Shown one piece after another: positions 1 to 9,526 of a stretch of 10,000 bases of DNA. This DNA is from Nitrospira sp. (lineage in GTDB: Bacteria > Nitrospirota > Nitrospiria > Nitrospirales > Nitrospiraceae): the NCBI GenBank assembly GCA_020216985.1, contig JAIWOH010000006.1, positions 1 through 10,000 on the forward strand, read 5' to 3'. Every line of letters starts with the position of its first letter. Position 1 is the stretch's first letter. The position numbers were made by a program, and so were the translations under genes. The notes below the pieces were generated by a model. That model saw only the letters and a program-made list of their open reading frames with translations, was not told the DNA's origin and ran no database searches.

Positions 1-696
1 GATCGGCCACCAGGTCGGGTTCCAGGTGGCGGCCCAGGCTCGTTCGATGGCCGTGCCTTCGGCGATCACAACCGGGCTTGACTGGAACGTCGCCCAAGCA
101 TTCGGGACGATCATGATGAAGATGGCAAAAAAGTTCAGGAGAAAGCCGAGGAAAATGTGCAAGGTTTTCTTGCCGCCATGCTGCATTGCGTCCCACCCAT
201 ACCAATAGAGATACAGCGTCGCGGTCTCAAACAAGAACAAAAGGCAGTACACAAGGAAGGACGGAAAGAAAATGTCCGTCAGATAGTTCATGAGTTTGGG
301 ATAGAAGACGATGAGCAGGAACAGTAAAATCCCACCGAACAGGGCGGTGGTGGCGTAGGCGGACGTGAGCAGCTTGGTAAATTCCTTGGCCAGCTTGTCG
401 TACCGCTGCTCGCCCCCTTTCCACGCGATGACCTCGCAGAGCCAGGCAAAGATCGGAACTCCCAAGACAAACCCCGCCAGAAGCAAATGGAGCTGCGCGA
501 CAATCCAAATCATATTCCTGCTGCCGATGTATGGAATATCCCTGTACTCCGTCGGACCGGCTGCGGTTCCCTCGGCCGCGAGACCGATGGCTGGCAGAGC
601 GAGCCAGCCCGCCGTGAGCAACAGGCCCACGAGCCAGCCCGCGTGAGCACCTCCGGCATGGATCGCTCGTTGAATCATTCTCTCCCCATGGCGCAT
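1..696 (-). CDS. Cytochrome bd-like oxidase subunit I, second copy (3' part beyond window)
   Basis: Partial gene; 232 codons are open to the left edge with no stop. Residues 1-42 look like a long signal peptide ending near GLAA. The rest aligns by eye with the bd-like protein at 4715-6424: a WIVAQLH segment with His70 (position of the haem b595 ligand His19 in E. coli CydA), a following RYDKLAKEFTK stretch, four predicted membrane helices, a YGWD motif and His180. Unlike its paralogue it keeps a glutamate (Glu157, LFET) at the place of CydA Glu107, a proton-channel residue in true bd oxidases. Start chosen at ATG 696 because AGGTGA lies five bases upstream; the in-frame ATG at 678 (GGGGAG upstream) is the alternative. 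It is the last visible gene of the operon, 46 bases after the six-helix protein. The family is clear; the function as an oxidase is inferred. Confidence 0.87.
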   Translation of the reverse strand, partial: MRHGERMIQRAIHAGGAHAGWLVGLLLTAGWLALPAIGLAAEGTAAGPTEYRDIPYIGSRNMIWIVAQLHLLLAGFVLGVPIFAWLCEVIAWKGGEQRYDKLAKEFTKLLTSAYATTALFGGILLFLLIVFYPKLMNYLTDIFFPSFLVYCLLFLFETATLYLYWYGWDAMQHGGKKTLHIFLGFLLNFFAIFIMIVPNAWATFQSSPVVIAEGTAIERAWAATWNPTWWPI

Positions 697-701
697 GAAG
701 C

Positions 702-717
702 TCACCTCTTCACCTCT
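702..717 (-). promoter_or_regulatory. Tandem duplicated Shine-Dalgarno (2 x AGAGGTGA)
   Basis: On the minus strand the octamer AGAGGTGA occurs twice in direct succession. The proximal copy ends five bases before ATG 696, ideal for ribosome binding. This supports 696 rather than 678 as the start of the second bd-like gene. Confidence 0.65.
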
Positions 718-742
718 CACGTTACGGTTTGCCGAGAGTAGG

Positions 743-1741
743 TCACTCACCGGTTTTCGTCCCGATTTTGTGATGTTCGGCCTTGGCTCCGCTCTTTTCC
801 TTCTCTTTGACAACCGCCTCGCCCGCTTTCTTCTCTTCCAACGCCTCGACTTGGGCGATCAGGTTCTCTATCTGTTGTTCATCGCGTGCCAGAGTCTCCA
901 TAGGCTTGAACGGCCGATGAGCCACGACCTCCGGCTTAGGACAGCATTCGTGAGGATGCGGCGTCGTCACCGGAAGGGCGACCCAAAACAGGATACAGAA
1001 GATGAGTCCCACTCCTACGACCGTCGTGACGAACAACCCCTGATCACGAGGCACGCGCATCAAATCCCATCGCGTAATCAACGCCTGATAGGTGCCGGAT
1101 GCCGGCGATGCGGCGGCGGCAATGTCGCGGATTATGCGGCCGATGGTTGAAACTCCTATCGTCAACAGAACCATTAAGACTCCGAATGCGATGGTTCCCC
1201 AGATCGCGACCTCCAGTCCGATTCGTTCGGCTACCGGAAGCCCGGTATGGAACAGATGCCGCAGACTTTCCATTTGGGCCAAAGAATGCGACGTCGACAT
1301 CGCCGTTTCCGTAACCGTACCGACCACCACCCAAAGGATCGGCAGAAAGAAGGCACCGACGACCGAAGATTTCCACCAGAGGGTGAACCCCAGTCTCGGA
1401 GGAGGCTCCTTTCTGAGCCGCTCAAGAAAAAACGTTTGCCCGACGACTCCGAACGCCCAGATATCGATTGGAATGGAGAGAAAGAGGAGCAGCGGCAACC
1501 CGATTCCTTCACCGAAATTTCCATCCAGCGCGAGAGAAATAATCGGCACGGCAAAGACCGTCACCGGACTGGCGAGCAACATCAAAAAGGCCAACCCCAG
1601 CCGGGCCTCCAGATGCATCAAGCCGACCGCCAAGGCGATCACGGCCAACGGCAGCTTGATGGGAAGCCCCGTCCAACAGGTCGGCCAGAGTACTCCGATC
1701 CCTATCTGTGTTGGCGATAAAGAGTCTCGCTCGCCGGCCAT
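743..1741 (-). CDS. Six-helix membrane protein of unknown function with C-terminal coiled coil
   Basis: I do not recognise a named family. The 332 residues contain about six hydrophobic helices (roughly 27-44, 49-70, 82-102, 123-141, 175-197, 235-257). Just after the last helix comes a His/Cys-rich patch, HPHECC (His262, His264, Cys266, Cys267), that could bind a metal. Residues about 280-318 form a charged, probable coiled-coil tail rich in Glu, Gln and Lys, ending in a Lys/His-rich stretch. The ATG at 1741 has GGATGA upstream. It sits 42 bases after cytochrome b and 46 bases before the second bd-like gene, so it is very probably a structural or assembly subunit of the same respiratory complex. 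That role is inferred from position only; nothing in the sequence shows a haem CXXCH motif. Confidence 0.85.
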   Translation of the reverse strand: MAGERDSLSPTQIGIGVLWPTCWTGLPIKLPLAVIALAVGLMHLEARLGLAFLMLLASPVTVFAVPIISLALDGNFGEGIGLPLLLFLSIPIDIWAFGVVGQTFFLERLRKEPPPRLGFTLWWKSSVVGAFFLPILWVVVGTVTETAMSTSHSLAQMESLRHLFHTGLPVAERIGLEVAIWGTIAFGVLMVLLTIGVSTIGRIIRDIAAAASPASGTYQALITRWDLMRVPRDQGLFVTTVVGVGLIFCILFWVALPVTTPHPHECCPKPEVVAHRPFKPMETLARDEQQIENLIAQVEALEEKKAGEAVVKEKEKSGAKAEHHKIGTKTGE

Positions 1742-1752
1742 CGGTCATCCGT

Positions 1753-1768
1753 CGGCGCCGCTGCGCCG
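1753..1768 (-). other. Perfect GC hairpin in the cytochrome b / six-helix gene gap
   Basis: CGGCGC and GCGCCG pair perfectly (1753-1758 with 1763-1768) around a four-base loop. There is no T-run after it, so it is not an intrinsic terminator. It lies immediately upstream of the ribosome-binding region of the gene starting at 1741 and may set the relative expression or mRNA processing within the operon. Confidence 0.5.
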
Positions 1769-1783
1769 CTCCTAAATCTAGTT

Positions 1784-2896
1784 CTAGTCCAGAAACTCTC
1801 GGTTGATCACGGCGGACACCGTGAAAATCGCCATGATCGCCATCATCGCGATCCAACTGATCAACGCCACGGGGCGCTTGAAAATATTCCGTTCCGGATC
1901 TCGATCGAAAAAGGGGAGCGCCACGAGCAGGCCCATAAAAATCACCGGCAACGCCACGGCTCCCATGAACTGCCCGAATTCGCCGGAAAACATCTTGAGC
2001 CTGAGCAGCTGGAAGTAAAAGAGAAAATACCATTCCGGCTCGGGGTGATACTCGCCCGGATCGGGCGTGGCCTCTTCCAACAGCACCACCGGTTCCCAGA
2101 ACGCCAATCCGCAAATCGCGGCGAAGACGACGGCCATGCCTACAATGTCCTTCCACACTTGCCGGGGGAAAAAGTAGTCGGTCTTTGCCTTGATCTCTTC
2201 CGGCGTCCCCCTGAACGGACCGGCCGGCGCGGCTACTCGGAATAAGTACAGGTGCAACCCGGCCAAGGCCATGAGCGCGGCCGGCAGAATCATCACATGG
2301 ATGACGAAAAACCGACTCAGCGTCAGTTGGCCCGGCGTCGGTCCTCCCTTCAGGAACCGCGCCATGAAATCGCCGAGGATCGGCGTTTTGTCGAGAATTT
2401 CAACTCCCACCGTCGTGGCCCAATAGGCCCGTTGGTCCCAGGGGAGCAAATACCCGGTAAACCCGAATCCGATGACGATGCCGAACAACGCCAACCCAAC
2501 AATCCACAGGAGTTCGCGGGGAGGCTTATAGGCTCCCCAGAGAAACACTTGCGACATGTGCGCGACGACGCAGACGGCCATGGCGCTGGATCCCCAAAAG
2601 TGATAGCCCAGCAGAAACCATCCGTAATCCACCTCGTGAATGATGTATTGGGTGCTGGCATAGGCATGGTCCGCCGTCGGGACGTAATAAAACATCAGCA
2701 ACACGCCGGTGATCGCCTGCATGATGAAAAGAAACAGCAGGATGGAGCCGAACACATAGGCCCACCGGGAGCCGCCGGGGATCGGCTCGTTGAGCATCTT
2801 GGCTTGAATTTCCTTCAGGCCGACGCGCTGGTCGAGAAACGCGACGATTTTTTCGACGGCTGTTGAAGGAACGTTGGAAACGGACGGCTGCCGCAT
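1784..2896 (-). CDS. Cytochrome b (fused b6/subunit IV type) of a bc1/b6f-like complex III
   Basis: Membrane subunit that oxidises quinol and carries the two b haems of complex III. Residues 1-40 are a cytoplasmic lead-in, followed by about seven to eight helices. Haem ligand pairs are visible: His99/His113 (13 residues between) and His200/His215 (14 between). The 14-residue spacing in the second pair is the b6-type pattern; mitochondrial-type cytochrome b has 13. The quinol-site PEWY motif is at 287-290, in the part corresponding to subunit IV of b6f, so b6 and subunit IV are fused in one 370-residue chain. The ATG at 2896 directly abuts the TAA of the Rieske gene, implying translational coupling. 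Reading continues into three in-frame TAG codons (1784-1786, 1778-1780, 1772-1774). Identification is secure; the redox partners come from context. Confidence 0.96.
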   Translation of the reverse strand: MRQPSVSNVPSTAVEKIVAFLDQRVGLKEIQAKMLNEPIPGGSRWAYVFGSILLFLFIMQAITGVLLMFYYVPTADHAYASTQYIIHEVDYGWFLLGYHFWGSSAMAVCVVAHMSQVFLWGAYKPPRELLWIVGLALFGIVIGFGFTGYLLPWDQRAYWATTVGVEILDKTPILGDFMARFLKGGPTPGQLTLSRFFVIHVMILPAALMALAGLHLYLFRVAAPAGPFRGTPEEIKAKTDYFFPRQVWKDIVGMAVVFAAICGLAFWEPVVLLEEATPDPGEYHPEPEWYFLFYFQLLRLKMFSGEFGQFMGAVALPVIFMGLLVALPFFDRDPERNIFKRPVALISWIAMMAIMAIFTVSAVINREFLD

Positions 2897-3832
2897 TTAC
2901 ATGATCCGAATTTGAGACTTGACTCCGGCCTTGAATTCCATGTCGATGATCTCCACGTCGCCATTGGCGGCCACCTTGATCGGCAAGGCATCAAGCGGCC
3001 TGGGTGCCGGACCGTCAAGCACCTTCCCCGCCGCATCGTAAATGCTCAGGTGACAGGGGCAAAGAAACACCTCTCCCAGAGTCTTGTGTTGTCGCCATTT
3101 ATACGCGCAACCCAGATGAGGGCATTTGCCTGAAAACGCGACGTAGGGAACGTCTTTTTTGTTCGTCCAAATGAGTTTCCCTGACGAATCGCGGAACTCT
3201 TGATCCTTGCCTTGATAAATCTGATCGAGCACCGAAGGAGTGGCTTTTAAGATCCACACCGACTTCTCGATTTCGGCTTCCGGCATATAGGCTTCTTTGA
3301 CCGTTTTCTTGTATTGGAACTGCACGCCGATGTCGTCCTGCTTGATCTTGCCGACGTTTCCGACCTTCAGCCATCCGTTGTCGAACGGTGCGTACATCGG
3401 CTTCATCAGATAACGCAGCACCGGATAGACCATCGGCAAACCGATCAGAAAACCGATGGCATGCGTGAAGTTCATGAAGAAGGTTCTACGCTTGATGTCT
3501 TTTTCAAGATCGGGCAGCGGAACGAGCACTTCGCCGGGAACGACGTCGAGATTGTCTTCCAGATGCGAGATCTCAACCTCGTGCGTGGTGACGTAATCCC
3601 CTCGATTGAACGGCGGGAGAGCCGCAATCTCGGAAGAAGGAATCTTTAATTCCACGGTACTTTCCGAGACGGCTCGCACGTGTTCCATAGACACTTGCCG
3701 CGCGCCATCGCCGTCCAGCGACACCACAAGATGGCTGATGTCGTGGGAAATCGGGTCCAGAATGACCCTCGTCACTTCACCAATGTCTCGGTCCGTGCAA
3801 CGAACCTTTGATTTCAGCTTCGGCTGCACCAT
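2897..3832 (-). CDS. Rieske [2Fe-2S] protein with N-terminal PRC-barrel-like domain
   Basis: Iron-sulfur subunit of complex III, taking an electron from quinol to a cytochrome c. From ATG 3832 the protein has 311 residues. Residues about 1-105 resemble a PRC-barrel domain (GEVTRVILDP, then a strand with HLVVSLDG). A twin-arginine motif, KRRTFF (114-119), then precedes a hydrophobic segment (about 123-142), fitting Tat export of a folded cluster domain. Cluster ligands are Cys237/His239 in CPHLGC and Cys258/His261 in CPCH; the GPAPRPL stretch (274-280) is typical of Rieske folds. The internal Tat signal would leave the PRC barrel in the cytoplasm and put the Rieske head in the periplasm. GTG 3835 is an alternative start; ATG 3832 overlaps the upstream stop by one base. 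The Rieske call is secure, the PRC-barrel call is by eye. Confidence 0.94.
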   Translation of the reverse strand: MVQPKLKSKVRCTDRDIGEVTRVILDPISHDISHLVVSLDGDGARQVSMEHVRAVSESTVELKIPSSEIAALPPFNRGDYVTTHEVEISHLEDNLDVVPGEVLVPLPDLEKDIKRRTFFMNFTHAIGFLIGLPMVYPVLRYLMKPMYAPFDNGWLKVGNVGKIKQDDIGVQFQYKKTVKEAYMPEAEIEKSVWILKATPSVLDQIYQGKDQEFRDSSGKLIWTNKKDVPYVAFSGKCPHLGCAYKWRQHKTLGEVFLCPCHLSIYDAAGKVLDGPAPRPLDALPIKVAANGDVEIIDMEFKAGVKSQIRIM

Positions 3833-4644
3833 CACTTCTTCTTGATCGGTTTCGGCGTGGCGACCGCCGTGTTCTTAAACGTATAGAGCCACGAGGCGAG
3901 CGCGGTTATTTCTCCGTCACTCATCACGTCCTTGAATTTGTCCGGCATCCGACCCTTTTCCCACTCTTTTTCGAATCCCTCCGCCATGAAACTCTTGGGG
4001 TCGATAATCTTTTGCTTGATCTCCTCGACCGTCAGATAGGACCCGATGTTATCCAACTCCGGACCGCGCTTTTTCCCGCCCTCGCCTCTCAATTTATGGC
4101 AGTTGTAACATTCCTGAAGCTGCCACTGCTCTTCCCCTATTTTCATGAGGTCGCCGGAATCCGCGCTCGCACTCACGGTCGTTGCGGCAGCGGAGGCGAC
4201 GGCCTTCGGGGCCACGACGGGAGCTTGATCGCCTCCCAATGCCTGAATTCGTTCGGCCAGCATTTTGGCCTTCTCATCAAGCTCTTGAATTCGCTTGGTC
4301 ACTTCGGCCGCGTTCCAGGGATCAAGCGGATTTTCCTTGCCGTCGAGAATCTTGGCGATCTTTTCTCTCTCGTCCTCAGGGTCAAACTGAGGCCAGAGTG
4401 ACGCCGTGGCCCCATACCCGAAGCAGAGAATCAAGTAGAACGCCACGACGGACATGGCCGCCGGCCATCCGCTCGGCCCGTTCGTCTGCGGCACGTCCAA
4501 CAGCAGAAACATCAACGTGCCGACGATCGCGAACCCGACGAACAACCCTTGAAACACCGGCGGGAACTCCATCGCCATCGACCCGAACCAGAGACCGGCG
4601 GCAACCGCCAGGCCGACAACGATTTTGACCATTGCCTTCCCCAT
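3832..4644 (-). CDS. Membrane-anchored monohaem cytochrome c with three N-terminal helices
   Basis: Electron-carrier subunit. From ATG 4644 it has 270 residues: hydrophobic helices at about 5-22, 29-50 and 64-82, then a charged probable coiled coil (about 90-137), an Ala/Val-rich linker (141-162), and a class I cytochrome c domain. The haem motif is CYNCH (Cys179, Cys182, His183); Met233 in GRMPDKF is the likely sixth ligand. ATG 4644 has AGGGGAG five bases upstream; the GTG at 4668 lacks comparable support. The stop overlaps the Rieske start by one base, so the two are likely made in fixed proportion, and this cytochrome may play the cytochrome c1/f role for the complex. The three-helix anchor is unlike classical c1, which has one C-terminal helix. 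Confidence 0.93.
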   Translation of the reverse strand: MGKAMVKIVVGLAVAAGLWFGSMAMEFPPVFQGLFVGFAIVGTLMFLLLDVPQTNGPSGWPAAMSVVAFYLILCFGYGATASLWPQFDPEDEREKIAKILDGKENPLDPWNAAEVTKRIQELDEKAKMLAERIQALGGDQAPVVAPKAVASAAATTVSASADSGDLMKIGEEQWQLQECYNCHKLRGEGGKKRGPELDNIGSYLTVEEIKQKIIDPKSFMAEGFEKEWEKGRMPDKFKDVMSDGEITALASWLYTFKNTAVATPKPIKKK

Positions 4645-4714
4645 AAGGACTCCCCTGGTTACGCCCACTCGACTCCGTACGCCCGCCGATGCAACGGCCC
4701 GATGGTGCCGATTG

Positions 4715-6424
4715 TCACTTGCTTCCGGCGGGAACGGGGATGCCCTGCGGCTCGCGCTCTTTCGCCTCGACGGACCGAAGGGCCAGAAAAACCGCCACGC
4801 TCACGACGACAAAAAAGAACACCGTGATCCCCGTAATCAGCCAGGCGGAATAGGACAGCGTCGGGGTGAACGACTCAGCCGTAAAATCCGGCACCAAGTT
4901 GTAGGCATGGAAAAACTTGCGCAACAACGACCGGACAGCCCCCATCAATCCCATCGCCCAAATCGACGTGAACGCCAAAAAAATAAGGACAAATTGAGAG
5001 ATGCCGTCGATCTTGCCCCACGCGATGGTTCCCCGACGAATGGCCCGGCCATAGACCACGTAATTGACAACCGTGACGAACACCAACGAGAAGATGGCGC
5101 CGAGCTTGGTCGGCATCTTACCGAGCACTTCCCATGCCTCCGGCAATTGAACGTCTTCCGCCATCTTGGCTCCGGTCGCCGCAAACCCGTTGGGAATCAC
5201 CCACAGCGCGTCGCTCACCACAACCATTAAAAACCCGATCTTCATGACCGTTTGCACGGACACCGTCATCGGCACGAATCGACCTAAGATGAACGGACTC
5301 AGCACGAACGGGATCAGGAACGCGAGCGACATCGGATCGGGGATCCAATATTCCGTAAAGACGACGACCATGACCACGGGAGACAAGACCATCATGAGCG
5401 GAGCCAACGCCGTCATCCTGACCTGTTCCACCCCTTCAATACGCCGCAGGCTGAGCCAGACGTAATAATTACAGCCCAGGAACATCACGCCCACGACGGC
5501 ACCTTGCATCTCGAAAAACATCGAGAGCTGATCGGCCATCATGTAGGGGCAAAACGAAAAGTCATAATCGCACATCTCGTAGGCCAACAATAATCCGGTA
5601 AAGGGCTGAAGAAGCATGGCGCCCACAGCGATCAAGTTTCCAACAAAACCCATCCAGTCGTAATAGGCACGATCCTCCCTGTTCTGAGCTCCCATGTACA
5701 TGTAGGCGGCGATCAAGCCAGCCACGAATCCCCCGAACGCCACGTTCCCGTCGATCCGATGGAGATTGAGCGGCATCCAGCTCGTGTTCGCGATTTTGTC
5801 CCATAAGGTCGCCGCGGCCAGGGCCTCCATCGGCGACACTCCCTCACCTCTGACAGGGGTATTCATAAACGATGTCGGACCGTTGATCACGAACATCGTC
5901 GCCAGACAGATCAAATTAAGAAGCACACCCAAAGCGATATGACGTCCCTTTTTCTCTCCTTTCCAAACATCCCAACTGTAAAAGTATGCGTAGAGCACGA
6001 TCGTTCCGACGATGAACAACAGCGGGTAGATCACGGCGAACACAAGATAAAACTGATTGATGAACCAGGTCGTGAACTGAGGGTAGGCGGCCAGGAGCAC
6101 AAAAATAAAGAGTCCGCCGGTCAGAGCGGTCATACTGAAAAGAATGACCGTGATCTTTGTGATCTCTTGGGCCATGCGATCATACCGAGGATCCTGCTTG
6201 CGATACCCCAGCCATTCGGCCATGACGATGAACATCGGAGCCCCGAGAATGAACGCGCCGAGAAGCGTATGGAGCTGTGCGACAATCCACACGGCGGTTC
6301 GGTTCCCCGTGTACGGAAACTCAACGGAGCCTCCCGGCATTTGCGCATGGACATCGGAAAGCCCCGCTGAAACAAGCCCGAGAAACACGACGATCGCGGT
6401 GAGATTACGAAGCCGTATGTTCAT
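4715..6424 (-). CDS. Cytochrome bd-like oxidase subunit I, full-length, lacking the Q loop
   Basis: A 569-residue polytopic protein distantly related to CydA. Residues 1-27 form a signal peptide (cleavage after VHA), which CydA lacks. His52 (AQLH) matches the haem b595 ligand His19 of E. coli CydA, and His222 (NLHRIDGN) matches the b558 ligand His186. His161 and the SWD motif (150-152) also align. Met306 may correspond to Met393. Two departures stand out. Position 140 is Gly where CydA has Glu107. The region between the helix at 258-282 and the next at about 299-322 is only some 16 residues, so the long quinol-binding Q loop is absent, and no GRQPW motif is seen. That short loop carries Cys285 and Cys292. 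ATG 6424 was chosen over 6439 for its GGGA-containing upstream region and cleaner signal peptide. Electron donor probably cytochrome c; this is inference. Confidence 0.9.
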   Translation of the reverse strand: MNIRLRNLTAIVVFLGLVSAGLSDVHAQMPGGSVEFPYTGNRTAVWIVAQLHTLLGAFILGAPMFIVMAEWLGYRKQDPRYDRMAQEITKITVILFSMTALTGGLFIFVLLAAYPQFTTWFINQFYLVFAVIYPLLFIVGTIVLYAYFYSWDVWKGEKKGRHIALGVLLNLICLATMFVINGPTSFMNTPVRGEGVSPMEALAAATLWDKIANTSWMPLNLHRIDGNVAFGGFVAGLIAAYMYMGAQNREDRAYYDWMGFVGNLIAVGAMLLQPFTGLLLAYEMCDYDFSFCPYMMADQLSMFFEMQGAVVGVMFLGCNYYVWLSLRRIEGVEQVRMTALAPLMMVLSPVVMVVVFTEYWIPDPMSLAFLIPFVLSPFILGRFVPMTVSVQTVMKIGFLMVVVSDALWVIPNGFAATGAKMAEDVQLPEAWEVLGKMPTKLGAIFSLVFVTVVNYVVYGRAIRRGTIAWGKIDGISQFVLIFLAFTSIWAMGLMGAVRSLLRKFFHAYNLVPDFTAESFTPTLSYSAWLITGITVFFFVVVSVAVFLALRSVEAKEREPQGIPVPAGSK

Positions 6425-6440
6425 AGCGTGACGTCCCATT

Positions 6441-6462
6441 CACACAAAAGGTCACACAAAAG
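6441..6462 (-). repeat. Short tandem repeat upstream of the bd-like gene
   Basis: The decamer CACACAAAAG (plus strand) occurs at 6441-6450 and 6453-6462, a 12-base period, inside the 62-base gap between the lipoprotein cytochrome gene and the bd-like gene. It could be an operator-like direct repeat or a replication slip; no function is evident. Confidence 0.6.
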
Positions 6463-6486
6463 AATCTTCTATCCAGATCTTCGCGC

Positions 6487-6996
6487 CTATTCCTCACCGG
6501 CTGAGGCCGCTGGAAGGCTTCCGACATCAACCCACTGCTTTTTCTCGTCGCTCCATGCCTTCCCAGATAACGCAAAACTCCGCTCGTAGAGCACCAGCTT
6601 CCACATATCTTCTTCTGAAAGCTTGCTCTTCCATCCCTTCATTTTCGTGTTGGGAACCCCCTCGGCAATGCGCCAGAACCACACCGAATCCGAGGCAAGT
6701 TTCATCCGTTCGACATTGCGAAAGTCTCGCGCACCAGCCTTGACCGGCTTCCCGTCTTTTCCGTGGCAACTGGCACAATTGACGTCAGGGTTCGCCTCGC
6801 CCAGATAAATCTTTCTCCCTTCTTCCATTTTGACGGGGTCATTCCACCACCCTACAGGCATATGTTTCTCAGCATATTCCGGAGGAGGCGGGGGCGGCGG
6901 GACAATCGGCCCATCTCCCGGTCCACCGTCTTCAGCACTACAGGAGATCAGCATTCCCATGCTGATGATCAATACGGCTTGCACCGCGACGCGCAT
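6487..6996 (-). CDS. Lipoprotein monohaem cytochrome c
   Basis: First gene of the respiratory operon, 169 residues. A short signal peptide ends in a lipobox, LISC, with Cys19 as the predicted lipidated residue, followed by a Gly/Pro linker with seven consecutive prolines (33-39) that would hold the domain away from the membrane. The haem motif is CASCH (Cys74, Cys77, His78) in the NCASCHGKDG context typical of small class I cytochromes; Met119 in NTKMKGW is the likely sixth ligand. The ATG at 6996 is preceded by GGAGAGGAATC, a strong ribosome site. It probably shuttles electrons between the complex III part and the bd-like subunits encoded downstream, on the periplasmic face. Not clearly assignable to a named cytochrome. 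Confidence 0.93.
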   Translation of the reverse strand: MRVAVQAVLIISMGMLISCSAEDGGPGDGPIVPPPPPPPEYAEKHMPVGWWNDPVKMEEGRKIYLGEANPDVNCASCHGKDGKPVKAGARDFRNVERMKLASDSVWFWRIAEGVPNTKMKGWKSKLSEEDMWKLVLYERSFALSGKAWSDEKKQWVDVGSLPAASAGEE

Positions 6997-7215: not shown

Positions 7216-7854
7216 TTAGGACCTTCGTTTGCCCTGCGATTTTTCTTTCGTCCGTTCCAACTTACGCCCGGAACGGACCATTTTCATCCCCATGAACGCT
7301 CCGACCCCCACGACCATCATCCCCATTCCCATCCAAAACCACTGAAGAGAACCGCTTGCCTCACAGCCGGCTCCAAAATTGACCCGAATCTTTCGCTCGG
7401 ACTCCAGATCTTTCGGGTCGAACTGGACTTTGCGATTTTGCTGCTCCCCCCTTGCTTCAATCAGAATAGGGTCGCCGAGGTTATCGTTATGGAGGTGAAA
7501 TATCGCTTTGTAATATCCGTCGCTATCTGTTTTAACAACTTGCCCGTAAGCAATCTTGGTGTCTTTAATCAAAACGTCTATGCCCGCGACTGCCTTTCCA
7601 TCCACCCCACAGACATACCCATCAACGGTAAAACGATGGTCTGCCTCATGAGTGGCAGAAACCCAAGAAGGAGCCAACGTGCCAGCGACTGCCCAACACG
7701 TGGCCATAGCAAGCCCCCGTGGAATGTCTTTCCACCGTCTGAGCCAAGCTACATTCTGAAACTTGCCTGCCACTCGACTTCCGATAACCCAACGCCACCC
7801 TTGGAATCGAGGCAGACACCGTTTCAGCAAATTTAGGGCGGGGTTTTTTAGCAC
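7216..7854 (-). CDS. Exported protein with carboxypeptidase-regulatory-like domain and C-terminal helix
   Basis: Function unknown. Numbered from GTG 7854 (212 residues), a basic N-terminal stretch (1-47) leads to a hydrophobic export signal (about 48-67, AVAGTLAPSWVSA). A beta-sandwich of the carboxypeptidase-regulatory/CNA-B-like type follows (about 74-160, with DGYVCGVDGKAVAGIDV and TDSDGYYKA). A Met/Gly-rich transmembrane helix (about 170-191) precedes a strongly basic tail, so the domain should sit in the periplasm, anchored by its C-terminus. The start is uncertain: GTG 7854 has GAGAGGGGG upstream, while ATG 7707, with GGGGG upstream, would give 163 residues and a normal-length signal peptide. 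A terminator follows. It is 167 bases from the gene before it and may belong to the hpnH unit or have its own promoter. Confidence 0.8.
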   Translation of the reverse strand: MLKNPALNLLKRCLPRFQGWRWVIGSRVAGKFQNVAWLRRWKDIPRGLAMATCWAVAGTLAPSWVSATHEADHRFTVDGYVCGVDGKAVAGIDVLIKDTKIAYGQVVKTDSDGYYKAIFHLHNDNLGDPILIEARGEQQNRKVQFDPKDLESERKIRVNFGAGCEASGSLQWFWMGMGMMVVGVGAFMGMKMVRSGRKLERTKEKSQGKRRS

Positions 7855-8021: not shown

Positions 8022-8459
8022 TTACAGCAGTCCGCGGTTCCGTGCATCATCCTCGACTCGCTTCGCCTCGGCTCGTCGCTCAGATTCTTTTTTCGATACC
8101 CACGCTTCCCAGGATTTGCCGTCCGCCGTATCTTCACCGGTAAACGCAATGGTCGCGATCGCACTGTAGGGAATTCGCCGAGGCGATGGATCATCGACGG
8201 GGAAGATCTCGATCCATGGATCGACTCCGCCAACTTCCCGGTTGAACAAATATCCTTCAACAACCTCGCCGGAAGTCAACGTCAGCGTCACGTCGCCACG
8301 ATAGTCCAGTGCAAGCTCCACGACCTCCCCCAATTCCCGCGTCGTTATCGGCCTAAACAAGCGACCTTGGAGAGAAGTGGAGCCATTTGACCCATGATTC
8401 TTCGTGTCGGTCATAAGAGGAAAGTCACCATCTGAAACAAGCAGATCAAATGAGTTCAC
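8022..8459 (-). CDS. Conserved-looking hypothetical soluble protein, possibly a small beta-barrel
   Basis: 145 residues; I do not recognise a family. No signal peptide, membrane helix or cysteine is present. The centre (about 48-107) alternates hydrophobic and polar residues, with a GDVTLTLTSGEVVEGYLFN stretch and then IEIFPVDD and RIPYSAIATIAFTG, which suggests a small Sm-like or SH3-like beta-barrel; the C-terminal 30 residues are charged and helical (KKESERRAEAKR). The start is GTG 8459, chosen because AAGGAAGG lies just upstream; the internal ATG at 8414 is preceded only by pyrimidines. It follows hpnH by 50 bases on the same strand with no terminator, so the two are probably cotranscribed. 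A link to hopanoid or membrane function would be guesswork. Confidence 0.75.
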   Translation of the reverse strand: MNSFDLLVSDGDFPLMTDTKNHGSNGSTSLQGRLFRPITTRELGEVVELALDYRGDVTLTLTSGEVVEGYLFNREVGGVDPWIEIFPVDDPSPRRIPYSAIATIAFTGEDTADGKSWEAWVSKKESERRAEAKRVEDDARNRGLL

Positions 8460-8509
8460 CGGCCTTCCTTTGCAAACTTTAGCCCACGCTCGCCTTCATG
8501 GGGCACACT

Positions 8510-9526
8510 CTATCGCAGCGTCGGCAATAACGTAAGCTTGGCGGTGCGCACAAACCCTGACAGTGAGCCGAACGTATCATTCACCGCCGATGCCTCGTAT
8601 CCACAATGGACCATACATTCGGCGCACTTCTCGTTCTTGCTCGTGCCATAGTTCTGCCATTCCGTCGTATCCAACAATTCCTGGAAGGTTTTTGCATAGC
8701 CGTCCTGCAACAGATAACAGGGTTTCTGCCACCCAAAAATGTTGTAGGTGGGATTGCCCCATGGCGTGCAGTGATAGTCTCGTTTCCCCATCAGGAAATC
8801 CAAAAACAGCGGCGACTGATTGAACTTCCACGAGCTCTTGGGCCGGCTGAGAATTTTCGAGAATAACTCTTTGGTTTTGGCTTTCTTGAGGAAGTGTTGC
8901 TGGTCGGGAGCTTTTTGATAACTGTAGCCGGGCGAAATCATCATCCCCTCAACGCCGAGCATCATCATTTCATCAAAAAACTGGCGCACTCGATCGGGAT
9001 TGGCATCATCGAAGAGCGTGGTATTGGTGGTCACCCGATGGCCCAGCTTCAACGCTTCCTTGATCGCCCTGACGGCGATCTCATACACCCCATCCCGACA
9101 GACGGCCATATCATGCTCGTTCTTGAGCCCGTCCATGTGCACACTGAACGTCAGATACTGCGACGGCTTGAACTCCTTGAGTTTCCGTTCGAGCAAAATC
9201 GCGTTCGTGCAGACATAGAGATACCGTTTTTGCGCCACCAACCCCTCGACAATCCGCCCGATTTCCGGATGAATGAGCGGCTCGCCGCCCGGAATCGCCA
9301 CGATCGGCGCGCCGCACTCCTCGGCCGCAGCCCAGCACTGTTCAGGGGTCAGCCGTTTATCAAGAATATGGTCGGGATACTGAATTTTCCCGCAACCGGC
9401 GCAGGCAAGGTTACACCGGAAGAGGGGTTCCAGCATTAACACCAATGGGTAGCGTTTGACACCCTTCAACTTTTTTGAAAGCACGTAGCTCGCGACGGTC
9501 AACATTTGAGATACGGGGACGGCCAT
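8510..9526 (-). CDS. hpnH: HpnH, radical SAM adenosylhopane synthase
   Basis: Radical SAM enzyme that joins a 5'-deoxyadenosyl group to hopene (diploptene), giving adenosylhopane, the first step to C35 side-chain hopanoids. The 338 residues show the radical SAM cluster motif Cys38, Cys42, Cys45 (CNLACAGC), a GGEPL motif (80-84) that contacts SAM, and a C-terminal cysteine group Cys301, Cys304, Cys308 (CAECMVHC) of the kind that may bind an auxiliary cluster. The N-terminal VPVSQMLTVASYVL and the LMLEPLFRCNL context match HpnH as I remember it. The ATG at 9526 has AAGGAG at proper distance. No other hopanoid gene (shc, hpnG) is in the window, so the pathway must be completed elsewhere. Length is normal for the family. 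Confidence 0.95.
   Translation of the reverse strand: MAVPVSQMLTVASYVLSKKLKGVKRYPLVLMLEPLFRCNLACAGCGKIQYPDHILDKRLTPEQCWAAAEECGAPIVAIPGGEPLIHPEIGRIVEGLVAQKRYLYVCTNAILLERKLKEFKPSQYLTFSVHMDGLKNEHDMAVCRDGVYEIAVRAIKEALKLGHRVTTNTTLFDDANPDRVRQFFDEMMMLGVEGMMISPGYSYQKAPDQQHFLKKAKTKELFSKILSRPKSSWKFNQSPLFLDFLMGKRDYHCTPWGNPTYNIFGWQKPCYLLQDGYAKTFQELLDTTEWQNYGTSKNEKCAECMVHCGYEASAVNDTFGSLSGFVRTAKLTLLPTLR

Follow-up and report, generated by a model that had tools for sequence, protein, structure and literature searches.

The Cluster and Its Genes

Nitrospira are widespread nitrifiers in which the route that electrons take to oxygen, or back to quinone, is unsettled. The stretch of Nitrospira sp. DNA analyzed here (the window: bases 1–10,000 of contig C62, JAIWOH010000006.1; host genome 2.26 Mb, 222 contigs, 87% complete) carries a gene cluster in which a bc/b6f-type complex III lies beside two proteins that resemble subunit I of cytochrome bd (CydA), here called bd1 and bd2. 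Seven genes, all on the minus strand, run from 6996 to 1 and are closely packed: the intergenic gaps are 46, 42, 46, and 47 bases, the cytochrome b and Rieske genes abut, and the Rieske gene overlaps that of the anchored cytochrome c by 4 bases.

6487–6996, minus strand: lipoprotein monoheme cytochrome c, 169 amino acids (aa), one CxxCH (Pfam and motif)
4715–6439, minus strand: bd1, CydA-like (cytochrome bd subunit I-like), 574 aa (PF01654, E 6e-20; Geobacillus CydA 5doq, E 1.6e-8)
3832–4668, minus strand: anchored cytochrome c, about three N-terminal membrane helices, one CxxCH (Pfam and motif)
2897–3835, minus strand: Rieske protein with a PRC-barrel-like N-terminus (residues 1–81), a helix at ~107–131, and a C-terminal 2Fe-2S domain
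1784–2896, minus strand: cytochrome b with b6-type His spacing, fused b6 and subunit IV parts, and PEWY (Pfam N and C parts)
743–1741, minus strand: 332-aa protein, about six membrane helices with a long C-terminal helix, no known family
1–696, minus strand: bd2, a second CydA-like protein, N-terminal 232 aa, cut by the window edge (CydA family, E 3.7e-12)

The coordinates and a Pfam scan of the seven products (cytochrome c, CydA-like, cytochrome c, Rieske, cytochrome b, no family, and CydA-like) bear out the original prediction of seven co-directional, closely spaced genes with these identities; bd2 is incomplete in the window, which holds ~232 of its ~611 residues (the full length is that of a close relative, L033, and the start at 696 was chosen by us). 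The cluster extends past these seven: four more genes come after bd2 in L033 and encode anchored cytochromes c of 207 and 239 aa, a 276-aa EB_dh (NxrC-like) protein, and a 341-aa diheme cytochrome c. The products may sort into two modules: module A, a putative bc/b6f-type complex III made of the Rieske protein, the fused cytochrome b, two cytochromes c, and the six-helix protein, plus bd1; and module B, a putative bd2 oxidase with two anchored cytochromes c, the NxrC-like b-heme protein, and the diheme cytochrome c.

An operon of complex III and bd-like genes is already known and is not new here: Mundinger et al. (2019; PMC6606698) described such a cluster in N. moscoviensis, with high expression, and suggested a possible III–IV supercomplex that might contact nitrite oxidoreductase (NXR) via alt_NxrC_1 (NITMOv2_0740). 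By its place in the published cluster alone, bd2 is taken to be the NIDE0901-like protein.

Conservation of the Gene Order

The main set of loci was the best 80 of 287 bd1 relatives from a genome scan, a choice that favors close kin. The seven-gene order is kept in all 62 loci that can be evaluated, i.e., that extend far enough on both sides, and is also present in 4 further loci of the 80, among them L111, in which only a piece of bd2 precedes a scaffold gap; the remaining 14, which lack the full order, are apparently cut by their ends. Such conservation is far beyond chance and covers several families (numbered here f1, f2, and so on), so the arrangement extends beyond one genome, as the original prediction had asked to be checked. 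Module B continues in order in 57 of the 59 loci with at least 10.8 kb from the bd1 start (stray bd1 matches inside bd2 were skipped); the misses are L111, where the scaffold gap falls inside bd2, and L124, which ends within a ~3.5 kb insert. In L043, a longer locus with the same coordinates as L124, the order resumes past this insert.

A second set of 43 hand-picked Nitrospirales loci (families f1–f4), some from genomes that overlap the first set, gives the order in 21/21 f1, 11/12 f3, 4/7 f2, and 0/3 f4 loci, or 36 of the 40 from f1–f3. Three of the four f2/f3 misses are apparently cut by contig ends; the fourth, L064 (L202:3393–6866 in the full contig L202; f2), has the Rieske gene, bd1, and the 239-aa cytochrome gene one after another, with cytochrome b and bd2 absent from the contig, a layout that may reflect a true rearrangement or a misassembly. 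The f4 loci retain everything from the lipoprotein cytochrome c gene through that of cytochrome b; no bd2, NxrC-like, or 239-aa cytochrome gene was found at them. Three loci from f8 and f9 have the same order, with a short protein replacing the 332-aa one, and six f18/f21 loci that were read have Rieske and cytochrome b genes without bd1 or bd2 alongside.

Two CydA-Like Proteins With Different Distributions and Residues

The original prediction treated the two bd-like subunits alike. They are clearly related: both score above the PF01654 cut-off, as members of the cytochrome bd superfamily do, and hhalign aligns them over nearly their whole length (probability 100, E 6.7e-85, 476 aligned columns), so that the cluster has two paralogous CydA subunits, as an OR-N CydAA′ oxidase would. 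Their distribution and their residues differ. In a quick tree, bd1 and bd2 fall on separate sides and other bd-like genes group with bd2; an f8 row labeled “other” sits among bd1, and two f18 rows stand beside the other bd-like genes. This tree is a sketch, for which the program warns of meeting long branches, the bd1 and bd2 groups included.

Which of the two keeps company with complex III? Twenty genomes, hand-picked after a Rieske match search rather than drawn at random, were examined for the pairing. Two (f8 and f9) have both proteins; four (f4) have bd1, one of them (G046) as a fragment only, without a close bd2, the best bd2 match there being at 45–46% or only bd1 itself; nine have bd2 at 52–71% identity without bd1 (four from f7, two from f18, and one each from f10, f11, and f12); four have neither; and in G041 bd2 is cut at a contig end and bd1 is absent. 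Five of the six genomes with bd1 orthologs (f4 ×4, f8, f9) have this Rieske/cytochrome b pair beside bd1, whereas seven of the nine bd2-only genomes gave no match to the window Rieske at E ≤ 1e-25, the two from f18 matching it at 44%. Thus, in the loci read, bd1 is found only beside this Rieske protein and bd2 also without it: bd1, rather than bd2, follows this complex III across genomes.

It is bd2, not bd1, that is tied to cytochrome c. In six of the nine bd2-only loci (L188–L193), bd2 and a relative of the 207-aa cytochrome c form one frame of 806–836 residues; the two are separate in L187 and L195, and L194 ends after bd2. A further fusion occurs in an otherwise standard cluster, that of G021, where a diverged bd2 joined to the 207-aa cytochrome c makes up a 787-residue frame (L043:10527–12887) and the ~3.5 kb insert precedes the 239-aa cytochrome. 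These fusions support cytochrome c as the electron donor to bd2. Four of the five f7/f10 loci also have a distant Rieske/cytochrome b pair within the bd2 cluster, so that complex III and bd2 are neighbors in two arrangements.

The residues likewise set bd1 apart. Counts are of alignment rows from Nitrospirales plus f8/f9, in which some genomes are present twice, so that rows are not independent lineages; the ligands of cytochrome bd are numbered H19, E107, and H186. A His like H19, placed by aligning bd2 to E. coli CydA and bd1 (H57) to 5doq, is present in 110/110 bd2 and 121/122 bd1 rows (one gap), and a His that may correspond to H186 is conserved in both proteins, one residue off in the sole pairwise alignment that reaches it. 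The Glu like E107 is kept in 108/110 bd2 rows (Ser in two) and in 96/121 bd1 rows, the other 25 having Gly; His369 of bd2 is present in all 109 rows with a letter, and position 417 of bd1 is not His in 51/121. The window bd1, with Gly145 and Asn417, has lost two ligand-like residues that bd2 keeps, and bd1 in general loses such residues far more than bd2 does. In the Pfam alignment, the CydA match ends at profile position 240–242 of 418, roughly after which, we presume, the quinol-binding loop would follow. No match to CydB was found among the scanned cluster proteins, a search that did not extend to the whole genome.

Complex III and the Six-Helix Protein

The core of the complex is of bc1/b6f type by its Rieske motifs, four heme His residues, and PEWY. 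In the Rieske protein, the 2Fe-2S ligands C238, H240, C259, and H262, plus C243 and C261, are invariant in 13/13 relatives. In cytochrome b, the heme ligands H99 and H113 are present in 125 of 126 rows (one gap) and H200 and H215 in all 126; PEWY is conserved, with Glu replaced by Ala in three of the 126. Two features set it apart from b6f proper: b6 and subunit IV, separate proteins there, form a single 370-aa protein here, and Cys35 of b6, the cysteine that binds heme ci, corresponds to V48, where each of the 123 lettered rows (of 126) has V, I, A, or T.

The N-terminal domain of the Rieske protein has a PRC-barrel fold that resembles the barrel of the photosynthetic reaction-center H subunit, and is followed by a helix (~107–131) that we interpret as a membrane helix, although a hydropathy sketch did not call it. 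In the window protein the barrel scores below the Pfam gathering threshold (15.6 bits vs. 21.2); at E ≤ 0.1, 43 of 48 close relatives of the Rieske protein have a PRC-barrel match, as do 6 of 13 diverse ones. Within the literature available to our search, the PRC barrel and the Rieske domain were not described together, and spelling variants retrieved only a Moraxella secretion study with “Rieske” and “PRC domain”; a database product (P0171) already names the barrel, as “FeS subunit, modulated with PRC-barrel”.

For the 332-aa protein, searches found no known fold or family, and it appears to be composite. Past residue ~217–228, its sequence matches one-helix proteins that stand alone in f8 (L077, 91 aa) and f9 (L079, 121 aa), and also the first portion of longer, low-complexity proteins in f4; the N-terminal part, with some five helices, occurs in f1, f2, and f3 loci. 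The short f8/f9 proteins, whose frames were read in L077 and L079, are similar to the 332-aa protein in 3/3 loci at E ≤ 1e-3 and in 1/3 at 1e-4.

The Host and the Surroundings of the Cluster

The original prediction spoke of a nitrite oxidizer, a description that is incomplete: amoA is present in the host genome, and for the NXR part the narG and DMSO_red_II family searches gave only matches below cut-off in this 87% complete assembly, leaving the nitrite-oxidizing half unconfirmed. No match to heme-copper oxidase subunit I was found in the same incomplete genome, which together with amoA makes the host probably a comammox Nitrospira; its three CydA-family genes (bd1, bd2, and one on C98) are accordingly the candidates seen for a terminal oxidase. 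The idea that loss of Glu145 in bd1 marks comammox did not hold: when all 21 Gly145 rows of the 80-locus set and 29 of its 58 Glu145 rows were compared, amoA was present in 17/21 Gly145 and also in 12/29 Glu145 genomes. Gly145 is a lineage mark, not a rule.

Upstream of the cluster, the window encodes proteins of 212 and 145 aa as well as HpnH:

7216–7854, minus strand: 212-aa protein (weak CarboxypepD_reg match that stays under the cut-off)
8022–9526: HpnH and the 145-aa protein

A relative of the 212-aa protein lies directly before the lipoprotein cytochrome c in 72/80 loci and was found in only 1/12 f3 loci. In four of the five f7/f10 loci (L189, L191, L192, and L193) it stands between the NxrC-like/diheme gene and the Rieske gene, and thus stays with complex III through the rearrangement; it could be an extra component or an assembly factor. 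HpnH has a match in 66/80 and 31/40 hand-picked loci and the 145-aa protein in 30/40 hand-picked loci, both upstream of the cluster where read. A UbiA-family prenyltransferase gene (L033:1692–2582) on the opposite strand faces the cluster end where read and has a match in 58/80 and 29/40 hand-picked loci; methyl-plastoquinones are reported as the quinones of these bacteria. Elsewhere in the host, a second stretch, L002:1069–1326, shares 71% DNA identity with a portion of the lipoprotein cytochrome c gene.

A Cytochrome c-Linked Respiratory Unit?

Why would complex III be encoded beside bd-like proteins at all? The original prediction saw a paradox here, in that complex III and bd oxidases normally belong to separate quinol branches. 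This paradox is weaker now: published analyses name cytochrome c as the likely electron donor of these bd-like proteins and find them to be without a quinol site (PMC10839748, PMC12324825), which places them downstream of complex III rather than in a rival quinol branch, and the bd2–cytochrome c fusions in relatives agree. A second quinol branch was rejected on these grounds. The coupling that the original prediction proposed gains from the conserved gene order and had already been put forward as a III–IV supercomplex (PMC6606698); its physical side we infer from the genes.

The reading that we favor, and hold at about an even chance, is that a complex III module and a cytochrome c-oxidizing bd-like oxidase module work together, perhaps in physical association, as one cytochrome c-linked respiratory unit. 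Electrons would pass from quinol through cytochrome b and the Rieske protein to the bound cytochromes c, which would hand them to bd2, the putative site of oxygen reduction. High-potential donors may feed electrons in at the cytochromes and the NxrC-like protein, from which they would flow to bd2 or back via complex III to quinone; such reverse operation, raised in the original prediction as well, is a published idea (PMC12324825). In this reading, bd1 would be a complex III-associated subunit. Several points weigh against such a unit. The case consists of genes, nothing here shows contact between the proteins, and a shared operon can mean shared regulation only. The families outside Nitrospirales are few, identity thresholds were set by us, genomes were picked by hand, and absences in an 87% complete host genome are weak. 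Individual loci also fit poorly: f18 has bd2 and a relative of this complex III with no bd1, and the f2 contig L202 has bd1 beside the Rieske gene without cytochrome b.

A further objection comes from published work and leads to the main rival, which is close to the published view: bd1 and bd2 may be the OR-N1 and OR-N2 halves of a single heterodimeric CydAA′ cytochrome c oxidase, with complex III a separate or loose partner. We regard this as a serious contender, at somewhat less than an even chance. An NIDE0901-like OR-N2 and an OR-N1 are thought likely to form a CydAA′ oxidase in most Nitrospirales genomes (PMC12342949), a pairing given as a hypothesis in PMC10839748, and the presence of bd1 and bd2 in one operon, seen in f1, f2, f3, f8, and f9 loci, fits it, as does their near full-length homology, which is expected of a pseudo-symmetric pair. 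It is harder to square with the 9/20 test genomes that have bd2 and no bd1, with f4, where bd1 lacks a close bd2, or with the place of bd1 inside the complex III gene block, where four genes separate it from bd2. That the operon merely co-regulates core respiratory genes, with complex III and the bd-like proteins each in complexes of their own, strikes us as unlikely. The six f18/f21 loci that keep Rieske and cytochrome b without adjacent bd1 or bd2 speak for it, and protein contact is indeed deduced rather than seen; yet several families share one fixed order, in which genes overlap or abut, and complex III and bd2 meet again in the second arrangement of f7/f10.

The bd-like proteins might, finally, not be oxidases but carry electrons between cytochrome c and quinone, the operon making quinol by reverse transport. 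Reversal of complex III in nitrite oxidation has been discussed (PMC12324825), and a quinone-linked role of a related bd-like protein has been raised (PMC3578206). We think this very improbable: with no heme-copper oxidase match in the host, CydA-family genes remain the oxidase candidates, and the CydA match stops at about the point where we would look for the quinol-binding loop.

More specific than the respiratory unit that we favor, and tentative enough that we would sooner bet against it, is the picture of a distinct complex III in Nitrospirales and near relatives, in which bd1 would reside as a bound subunit with the Rieske/cytochrome b core on one side and the cytochromes c on the other, no longer an oxidase in lineages where its Glu and His are lost, a reaction-center-H-like barrel borne by the Rieske protein would cap the cytoplasmic side, and the whole would dock with a bd2 oxidase module distinct from it. 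It would be unexpected for complex III to have a CydA-like subunit, and if bd1 does belong there rather than to the oxidase, the subunits to be expected in either complex are no longer the same. By fixing complex III beside an oxidase, the conserved cluster defines a set of proteins to seek in one particle, and the odd parts of the cluster make its wiring testable.

Comparison With Known Systems

In the actinobacterial III2IV2 supercomplex, complex III with a bound cytochrome c feeds a heme-copper oxidase in the same particle. In Nitrospira, the oxidase would be CydA-like rather than heme-copper, and a shared particle is putative. A second parallel, between the Rieske N-terminus and the reaction-center H subunit, is one of fold: the Nitrospira barrel is followed by a helix and then by a Rieske domain, and photosynthesis is not implied.

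Other likenesses are of whole gene clusters. Related bd-like clusters, some with complex III-like parts, have been described (PMC9040806), and one of these, TO_2 of Ca. Manganitrophaceae, is resembled by the f7/f10 clusters (L189–L193), which share with it bd2 and cytochromes c, the NxrC-like protein followed by the distant Rieske/cytochrome b pair (in 4/5), and two many-helix genes directly before bd2, of which the three proteins tested are all antiporter-like (Proton_antipo_M). This likeness suggests that f7/f10 are Manganitrophaceae. These clusters differ from that of the window in having no bd1 and a cytochrome b that is distant and shorter. The closest match is the CIII_1/bd-like_1/bd-like_2/alt_nxrC_1 region of N. 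moscoviensis, which has the same kinds of genes and which we equate with L129 (NZ_CP011801, 689890–711524) by gene content and rough position, not by matched locus tags. The available parts of its description (PMC6606698) are silent on the PRC barrel, on the 332-aa protein, and on any unequal distribution of the bd-like proteins; relative to the published descriptions as accessible to us, the present analysis adds the distribution of bd1 and bd2, the residue losses in bd1, the bd2–cytochrome c fusion, the PRC barrel of the Rieske protein, and the make-up of the 332-aa protein.

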